DNA of 64,000 bases from contig NZ_QBKU01000006.1 in assembly GCF_003054325.1 (NCBI RefSeq), positions 186,001-250,000 of the forward strand, written 5' to 3'. The notes under the pieces are model-generated. The model did no database searches, was not told the DNA's origin, and saw only the letters and a list, made by a program, of their open reading frames with translations. The translations under genes and the position numbers were made by a program. Each line of letters opens with the position of its first letter. The first letter of the stretch is position 1. This document shows positions 35,540-37,209 of this stretch, piece by piece. This DNA comes from Sulfitobacter mediterraneus. Its GTDB lineage: Bacteria; Pseudomonadota; Alphaproteobacteria; Rhodobacterales; Rhodobacteraceae.

Positions 35540-35950
35540 ATGATATTTGACCGGGAACTTATCTCAAACGGCAACCCAATGGAAAAGATCGTCGGCTTTA
35601 GCCGCGCTGTGCGAGTCGGGCCTTTCATATCTGTCGGTGGCACCGCACCGGTTGGGGCAGACGGCAAAACCGTTGGCGTTGGCGATGTTGGCGCCCAAAC
35701 GCGTCAATGTATCGAGATCATCAAACAAGCGTTGGAGCAGGCAGGATCAGGGCTACATGACGTGGTGCGCACACGGGTCATCCTGACCAATATTGACGAT
35801 TGGAAAGCCGCCATTGATGTGCGCAAAGAGTACTTTGTTGATGTGCGTCCGGTGGACACGATCATGGCTGTAGACCGGTTCGTAAACCCCGAATGGCTGG
35901 TTGAGCTGGAGGCCGATGCGATCATCGGCGGCTGGGGCGGCGCGGGCTAG
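35540..35950 (+). CDS. RidA family protein lacking the catalytic arginine
   Basis: The 136-residue protein has the YjgF/YER057c/UK114 (Rid) fold, seen in RAVRVGPFISVGGTAPVGADG, QTRQCIEIIKQALEQAGSGLHDVVRTRVILTN and the closing VELEADAII. In active RidA an arginine in the segment P-A-R-S binds the imine substrate. Here the matching segment reads RPVDTIMAVDRF, with Asp or Val in its place, so imine deaminase activity is doubtful. It is probably a Rid subfamily with another role. Its last 4 bases overlap the convergent SRAP gene. Confidence 0.85.
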   Translation: MIFDRELISNGNPMEKIVGFSRAVRVGPFISVGGTAPVGADGKTVGVGDVGAQTRQCIEIIKQALEQAGSGLHDVVRTRVILTNIDDWKAAIDVRKEYFVDVRPVDTIMAVDRFVNPEWLVELEADAIIGGWGGAG

Positions 35951-36564
35951 GCCCCGGACCAATCCACACCCTCGGCCTTTTCAATACGCAGTTGGCCGTC
36001 AGGCCACGGCACCATAAGGTTGTGGACATCGGATGCATCGCCCTGCAACCAAAGAGCAATATCGCTTGGCCCCAACAGTACACCCATGCGGTGATGGATC
36101 GGTTCAACATCTGCGTTTGGCGGGCAGGTCACCGTGGCGACCTGTTCCACCGTTACGCCGCCGGGGCCATTCCATACGTCGGTGATCGCCGCGAAAAACA
36201 GCAATCCACCGTCCCTTGGCGCGATGCGCCATGCGGTTTTCTTGCGTTTCTCACCGGTCCATTCGTACCAGCCATTCACCGGCACAACCGCCCGTCCCGT
36301 ACCTTCATAGGCGGATTTATCAAAAACGGTTTCGGACCGGGCGTTGATCAACGTTTCCATCACCGGACGCCCCCGCGCATTGACCCGGCCCACCGGAATG
36401 ATCCCCCACCGCATACGCGACAACCCAAGAGCCGTGACGCACAACAGCTCTTGCCCCGGTGCGATATTATGGCGGGGCGGCTCGCTCTCAAACGCAGATG
36501 TATCGGCGCCCAAAACATCGCGTAATTCAGAGACCGGCGATGTCAAAAACAGGCGTCCGGGCAT
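35947..36564 (-). CDS. SRAP/YedK (HMCES) family protein with Pro2 instead of Cys2
   Basis: SRAP proteins shield abasic sites in single-stranded DNA by bonding to them through Cys2. The 205-residue protein is full-length and keeps the other active-site residues: N74 in INARSET, E101 in GWYEW and H157 in IHHRMGVLL, plus PRHNIAPGQ and the RWGIIP strand. The N-terminus, however, reads MPGRLFLTSP rather than MCGR. The ATG is clear and no MCGR is available in another frame. Loss of Met would expose an N-terminal proline. It precedes no obvious repair partner; the GDSL gene lies just upstream. Confidence 0.88.
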   Translation of the reverse strand: MPGRLFLTSPVSELRDVLGADTSAFESEPPRHNIAPGQELLCVTALGLSRMRWGIIPVGRVNARGRPVMETLINARSETVFDKSAYEGTGRAVVPVNGWYEWTGEKRKKTAWRIAPRDGGLLFFAAITDVWNGPGGVTVEQVATVTCPPNADVEPIHHRMGVLLGPSDIALWLQGDASDVHNLMVPWPDGQLRIEKAEGVDWSGA

Positions 36565-36567
36565 CGG

Positions 36568-37209
36568 TTAGCCCTCAATCTGGTTGATCAGCTGCAACAG
36601 CTCTGGCCCGAACCGCGCAACAATCATCGCCACGCCCTCGGCATTGGGATGCACGCCATCACCCTGGAACAGTGCACGATAGGCGCTGAGGTCTTCGCTT
36701 TCCTGCTCCTCGGTCAGCCCCGCAAAGAAGCTGTCGAGATAGAGGGTGTCAAAGTCTTTGGCCAGATCTGGGTAGATCCCCTCAAAGTCGGCTTTGTAGT
36801 CTTCGCCATAGTTCCCCGGCGCTTGCATGCCGACCAGCAGAACCTCGACCTCTGCCACCTGGGCCGCAGTGAGGATACCTGTCAGATTGTGCCGCGCCTG
36901 TTCCGATGGCAACCCGCGCAGCACGTCATTGCCGCCCAGCGCCACGATCATTCCGTCCACATCCGGCGTCAGCGTCCAATCCACCCGCGCCAATCCGCCA
37001 GCCGTGGTATCGCCGGACACTCCGGCATTGATCAACCGCACCTCTGCGCCGTTGGCATCCAGCCAGGCTTGCAACTGCGGCACAAACCCCTGTTCGGCAG
37101 GCAATCCATACCCTTGGGTCAAACTGTCGCCCAACGCGGCAATAACCACCTCATCGGCTTGCGCAATTCCTGCGAAACTGACCACAATTCCAATCATTAC
37201 CTTGCGCAT
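36568..37209 (-). CDS. TesA-like GDSL esterase / lysophospholipase
   Basis: This 213-residue periplasmic SGNH hydrolase has a short signal peptide (MRKVMIGIVVSFAGIAQA|D). The four family blocks are present: Ser in ALGDSLTQGYG, Gly in NAGVSGDTT, Asn in LGGNDVLRG, and Asp/His in DGVHPNAEG. TesA cleaves acyl thioesters and lysophospholipids. The divergent neighbours are an ABC ATPase and an FtsX-like permease of the YbbA-YbbP kind, which in E. coli work physically with TesA. The stop lies 3 bases from the start of the SRAP gene, so the two are co-transcribed. Confidence 0.9.
   Translation of the reverse strand: MRKVMIGIVVSFAGIAQADEVVIAALGDSLTQGYGLPAEQGFVPQLQAWLDANGAEVRLINAGVSGDTTAGGLARVDWTLTPDVDGMIVALGGNDVLRGLPSEQARHNLTGILTAAQVAEVEVLLVGMQAPGNYGEDYKADFEGIYPDLAKDFDTLYLDSFFAGLTEEQESEDLSAYRALFQGDGVHPNAEGVAMIVARFGPELLQLINQIEG

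Follow-up and report, generated by a model that had tools for sequence, protein, structure and literature searches.

Proteins of the SRAP family (PF02586), among them YedK and HMCES, have been described through the chemistry of a single residue: in the accessible part of PMC3765255 (2013), Cys2 is absolutely conserved and is always the second residue. According to the portion of PMC9436759 available, the alpha-amine of YedK is the first nucleophile to act on an abasic site, and the C2A variant forms no stable crosslink, giving instead a borohydride-trappable Schiff base through that amine, for which structure 8D2M was obtained. The same portion describes lyase activity of YedK C2A, which cuts abasic DNA, and ranks Glu105 above His160, C2A E105Q being 25-fold and C2A H160Q 2.5-fold slower; YedK also reacts with 3'-PUA ends, where Asn75 and Glu105 matter most. 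Turning to proline nucleophiles, the accessible part of PMC11323726 presents mycobacterial Nei2, a Pro2 protein, as an AP beta-lyase on single-stranded DNA, in which the N-terminal proline is the essential AP-lyase nucleophile and both P2A and P2C abolish activity. Text searches of an open-access library gave no report of a proline SRAP, subscription journals and preprints lying mostly outside this search.

A SRAP gene with proline at position 2

The window, the whole 64,000-nucleotide stretch of Sulfitobacter mediterraneus DNA that was analysed, encodes a SRAP protein whose N terminus reads MPGRLFLT, hereafter Pro2-SRAP (Table 1). The original prediction had assigned positions 35947-36564 to a SRAP/YedK protein, and this identity holds, on the minus strand: Pfam SRAP PF02586 matches residues 1-194 (E 1.9e-40; 139.1 bits vs a cut-off of 27.1), and ORF reading showed that the plus strand of this interval does not encode Pro2-SRAP. 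It had further proposed that the full-length protein starts MPGR instead of MCGR, from an unambiguous start, and reading of the ORF and its codons on the minus strand confirmed both points. The frame directly 5' of the gene is TAA CCG ATG, with one codon between stop and Met, and a longer start is ruled out because the in-frame TAA lies two codons upstream; within this frame, a Cys codon comes after an ATG, GTG or TTG codon at one place only, about 40 residues inside the domain.

The AlphaFold model supports the assignment to this fold, with high mean confidence overall (pLDDT in Table 1) and a mean of 63 over residues 61-70, which belong to the clade loop. The PDB entries among the matches listed for the model (n=15) all belong to SRAP proteins; one of them is 8D2M, the Schiff-base complex of YedK C2A (Z 21.4 and rmsd 2.7 over 192 aligned positions, residues 2-205). 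Against YedK chains, Z is about 21, with ~25% identity in the structural alignment. The predicted retention of N74, E101 and H157 was likewise upheld, since these residues align with YedK N75, E105 and H160 and are invariant in 97/97 distinct clade proteins.

Table 1. Features of the Pro2-SRAP locus, in window coordinates.
Feature	Position	Strand	Basis
Pro2-SRAP gene, 205 aa	35947..36564	-	ORF; Pfam SRAP; model mean pLDDT 87.4; structure matches
ATG CCC GGA CGC (Met1-Pro2-Gly3-Arg4), Pro2 replacing the catalytic Cys2	36553..36564	-	Codon reading
In-frame TAA two codons 5' of the start, also the lipase stop	36568..36570	-	Codon reading
Clade-specific loop GRVNARGRP, residues 59-67	36364..36390	-	Clade alignment
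Asn74 (YedK Asn75)	36343..36345	-	Clade alignment
Glu101 (YedK Glu105, the main acid-base residue per the accessible part of PMC9436759)	36262..36264	-	Clade alignment
His157 (YedK His160, ring opening per the accessible part of PMC9436759)	36094..36096	-	Clade alignment
GDSL lipase (TesA-like) gene directly upstream of Pro2-SRAP	36568..37209	-	Pfam; locus comparison

Conservation, distribution and setting of the Pro2 clade

Related genes were collected by scanning named genomes with peptide patterns that excluded the N terminus, and the best 80 loci were kept; residue 2 was thus not selected for, because it lies outside the patterns that fetched these loci. A Met/Val/Leu-Pro-Gly-Arg start (ATG, GTG or TTG) is present in 79/80. 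The 80th, from a metagenome bin (L052), keeps PGR and has AGG at the start-codon position (around 4001), which could be a sequencing error or mark a copy that lost its start; it was left out of the protein set. Named loci and the family sample together gave 105 rows, which reduce to 97 distinct clade proteins readable from the start codon, the window's own included. P2, G3, R4, N74, R76, E78, E101, H157 and R159 occur in all 97, and Pro2 remains constant down to about 45% identity, so that a lone mutation or a sequencing error was rejected as its source. The clade loop GRxNARGRP is nearly as uniform, with R60, R64, R66 and P67 in 97/97, N62 in 96 and A63 in 95 (a 27-sequence alignment was also made), and the C-terminal LIxP tail is found in 0/105 clade rows vs 20/20 canonical rows. 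The Pro2 start lies no more than 10 codons from an upstream in-frame stop in 55/79 readable named loci. The search among homologues for a Cys start elsewhere returned none, as no clade row has a Met-Cys start near the N terminus, and the Pro2 start stands. In 14/14 close clade pairs dN/dS is 0.04-0.17, and the gene is therefore under purifying selection.

The count of Pro2 against Cys2 among homologues, which had been suggested as a check, separates the clade, all Pro2, from other SRAPs, nearly all Cys2. A clade orthologue is present in 25/198 sampled genomes of the bacterial family, with Pro2 in 25/25, and these orthologues share at least 53% identity vs at most 41% for all other SRAP matches. 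The other SRAPs of the family sample (n=125) comprise 123 with Cys2, one with Pro2 (L145, genome G063) and one that is unreadable (L247), which lacks a start codon where one should be and shows neither MCGR nor MPGR, so that its N terminus is possibly damaged. Cys2 was read in 26/26 class loci outside the family and in all 20 loci from the phylum search that fall outside the clade, two of which repeat Cys2 genes already read. Family members alone scored more than 300 bits against the clade profile, in 4 genomes among 385 of the class and in 5 among 299 of the phylum. The clade consists of proteins of marine bacteria.

A second SRAP (E 1e-10 or better) accompanies the clade member in 22/25 carrier genomes, and two of the three carriers with none are only 83% complete. 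Among the 21 second SRAPs that were read, a set that does not include that of G151, 20 have Cys2 and one has Pro2. Pro2-SRAP is, in most carriers, an addition to the Cys2 SRAP and not its replacement. The S. mediterraneus genome itself holds three SRAP genes in all: besides the one described here, there is a canonical SRAP (L001, MCGRM) on contig C4 and a phage-like one (L003:1450-2118, minus strand, MCNLY), which lies on contig C6 some 19 kb ahead of the window. An exact GTTC-N7-GTTC box lies at L003:3312, upstream of this phage-like gene and its neighbour. An origin of Pro2-SRAP from phages or plasmids was rejected, with no close relative in either: 42 phage records match, all below 60% identity (best about 31% among 15 listed), as do 1477 plasmid records, all below 60% (best 36.5% among 25 listed). 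Viral contigs yielded 32 loci, with at most 38% identity and with Cys2 in 32/32.

The exceptional protein L145 (also read at L263:1805-2470, minus strand) is of canonical type, with the LIxP tail, yet starts MPGR; it keeps Asn, Glu and His, its start lies two bases after the stop of the upstream gene, and its genome (G063) has a Pro2-clade protein as well. A first, quick tree of 76 rows placed L145 among Cys2 SRAPs and did not reject a single origin of all Pro2 proteins (p-AU 0.711), the constrained tree even scoring higher. The careful tree, of 57 rows, leaves out residues 1-4, some of the canonical rows and the long-branched YedK, L003, L083 and L204; it supports the Pro2 clade at 100/100 and the group of canonical SRAPs with L145 at 100/99, and it rejects one Pro2 origin (p 0.027), with a bootstrap that is not fully settled. 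By this sequence phylogeny the Pro2 clade is monophyletic, and the single origin was rejected on the 57-row tree but not on the 76-row one. There were probably two origins, L145 representing a separate change from Cys2 to Pro2; this is likely and not certain because of the unsettled bootstrap of the careful tree.

In 63 of the 80 best named loci, the gene immediately upstream has the same orientation and encodes a GDSL lipase. The two genes are separated by -1 to 9 bases in 58 of these 63, and Pro2-SRAP is probably in the same transcript as the lipase. FtsX-type permease genes occur in 63/80 loci and an ABC ATPase in 55/80. The 17 loci without the lipase have varied neighbours; six of them share a gene directly downstream, and the one copy scanned (L059:4645-5355) encodes a ParA/MipZ-like ATPase. 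Canonical SRAP genes are often found beside, or co-regulated with, SOS and translesion genes, although this is not obligatory, and the SOS box motif is GTTC-N7-GTTC or GAAC-N7-GAAC. Neither motif occurs in exact form within 1100 bp upstream in any of the 80 loci, for which reason SOS regulation was rejected, and the 10 neighbour proteins scanned include no DNA-repair gene product and suggest no repair operon. Because the neighbours are lipase and ABC genes, with no repair gene or SOS box, the context gives no clue to function. In the window, the end of a convergent RidA-family gene (35540-35950, plus strand) and the stop of the SRAP gene overlap over 4 bases. RidA acts on imines and enamines. 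A functional partnership was nonetheless rejected, as 0/80 named loci have a match to this RidA at 1e-10 beside the clade gene; a different RidA directly upstream of Pro2-SRAP in one locus (L063) was taken as coincidence.

Candidate chemistry and competing readings

Met-Pro-Gly is a good substrate of methionine aminopeptidase, and removal of Met1 by this enzyme is assumed to place proline at the active site. Ring opening of the abasic sugar in single-stranded DNA, by Glu101 and His157, would then expose the aldehyde, and attack on C1' by the secondary amine of proline would yield an iminium (Schiff base). As there is no thiol, the thiazolidine could not close; a stable thiazolidine crosslink at residue 2 should, we infer, be chemically impossible. 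The adduct might hydrolyse, acting as a transient, reversible cap, or proceed by beta-elimination, in the manner of Fpg/Nei, to a strand cut on the 3' side of the site; the arginine-rich loop of the clade probably alters the grip on DNA. With the swap from Cys2 to Pro2, permanent capping would probably give way to a short-lived bond or to cleavage of the DNA. The original prediction's interpretation, a reversible imine or a lyase reaction instead of a thiazolidine, is thus partly supported, its chemical side being predicted from the published behaviour of YedK C2A and of N-terminal-proline lyases. By analogy, the reading favoured with moderate confidence makes Pro2-SRAP a naturally occurring Schiff-base SRAP that acts beside the Cys2 shield, either as an AP lyase or as a reversible abasic-site binder; between its two outcomes, the lyase is tentatively preferred, and a long-lived reversible cap is a less probable candidate.

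The Schiff-base reading was reached because of the chemistry of C2A YedK and of Pro2 in Nei2 (accessible parts of PMC9436759 and PMC11323726), together with the invariant Glu and His. Also in its favour are the low dN/dS, the structural match to 8D2M, the second, mostly Cys2, SRAP of 22/25 carriers and the grouping of L145 with Cys2 SRAPs. Several points count against it: the lack of a repair neighbour and of an exact SOS box in the loci surveyed, the poor modelling of the key loop (pLDDT 63), and a clash that the proline ring might produce in the Cys2 pocket. There is also no sign that the lyase is needed, because carriers do not lack Fpg/Nei: H2TH is present in 22/22 carriers tested (of 25) and in 22/22 non-carriers, and replacement of Fpg/Nei by Pro2-SRAP was accordingly rejected.

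Alternatively, the pocket may bind abasic or single-stranded DNA non-covalently, with Pro2 chosen for the loss of the thiol and the protein serving as a sensor or as a competitor of Cys2 SRAPs. Loss of Cys2 does take away the known stable crosslink, and the arginine loop is specific to the clade; however, a pure binder has no obvious need of Glu101 and His157, both invariant in 97/97, and the residue fixed is not Ala, Ser or Gly but proline, whose amine serves as the nucleophile of known AP lyases, which leaves this reading unlikely. Abasic sites may also not be the main target, the proline amine reacting with another aldehyde, such as lyase-made 3'-unsaturated ends, or acting as a general base. 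The residues that matter most for YedK on 3'-PUA (Asn75 and Glu105 in the accessible part of PMC9436759) are both kept in the clade, and its loop is unlike that of YedK around W67/W68, but His157, which is tied to ring opening at internal sites, is invariant too, and we regard another substrate as unlikely.

Two further readings fare worse. A decaying paralogue that has lost its active residue would be consistent with the usual presence of a canonical Cys2 copy, the missing LIxP tail (0/105 rows) and the metagenome copy without a normal start codon, whereas the low dN/dS and the recurrence of the same residue in every distinct clade protein, down to about 45% identity, make such decay very improbable. 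A misassigned start, with a Cys start elsewhere, was rejected and has next to no probability, given the stop two codons upstream, the closeness of the Pro2 start to an upstream stop in 55/79 readable named loci and the lack of a Met-Cys alternative near the N terminus.

Significance and relation to known systems

A natural Pro2 clade in which the rest of the active site is kept indicates that the SRAP family is not limited to the suicidal crosslink chemistry of Cys2, and it provides a variant counter to the residue described as absolutely conserved in the accessible part of PMC3765255. The clade offers a natural test of how the thiol contributes beyond the amine, and it predicts convergence with the proline mechanism of Fpg/Nei. 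It is conceivable, and we put it forward tentatively, that one branch of the SRAP family went from a self-sacrificing shield to a turnover enzyme by a Cys to Pro nucleophile swap and so converged, from an unrelated fold, on the catalytic proline of Fpg/Nei. The change would have occurred at least twice within a single bacterial family, and its product would act in cells that retain the original shield.

Pro2-SRAP shares with YedK and HMCES the fold, the active-site Asn, Arg, Glu and His, and Gly3-Arg4. It differs from them in residue 2, which is Cys in those proteins and Pro in the clade, in the loop, GWWDKPP (W67/W68) in YedK and GRxNARGRP here, and in the C-terminal LIxP tail of canonical SRAPs, which it does not have. 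The closest described counterpart in chemistry is YedK C2A (8D2M), which likewise combines a thiol-less N-terminal amine with Glu and His, and on this likeness a Schiff base and lyase activity are predicted for Pro2-SRAP; that protein, however, is an engineered mutant with a primary amine, whereas Pro2-SRAP is natural, clade-wide and carries the secondary amine of proline. Fpg/Nei resemble it in having an N-terminal proline after Met removal (presumed for Pro2-SRAP), which would be the Schiff-base nucleophile, but they have an unrelated fold with an H2TH domain and Glu3, while the Pfam scan of Pro2-SRAP returned SRAP only and Gly3 is found in 97/97; there is no reason to expect glycosylase activity. 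Because the fold and the Asn, Glu and His residues agree with SRAP and Cys2 does not, the protein is classed as a variant and not as a canonical SRAP, and on the best reading it would be a variant of the SRAP fold that works like Fpg/Nei without being a member of that family.
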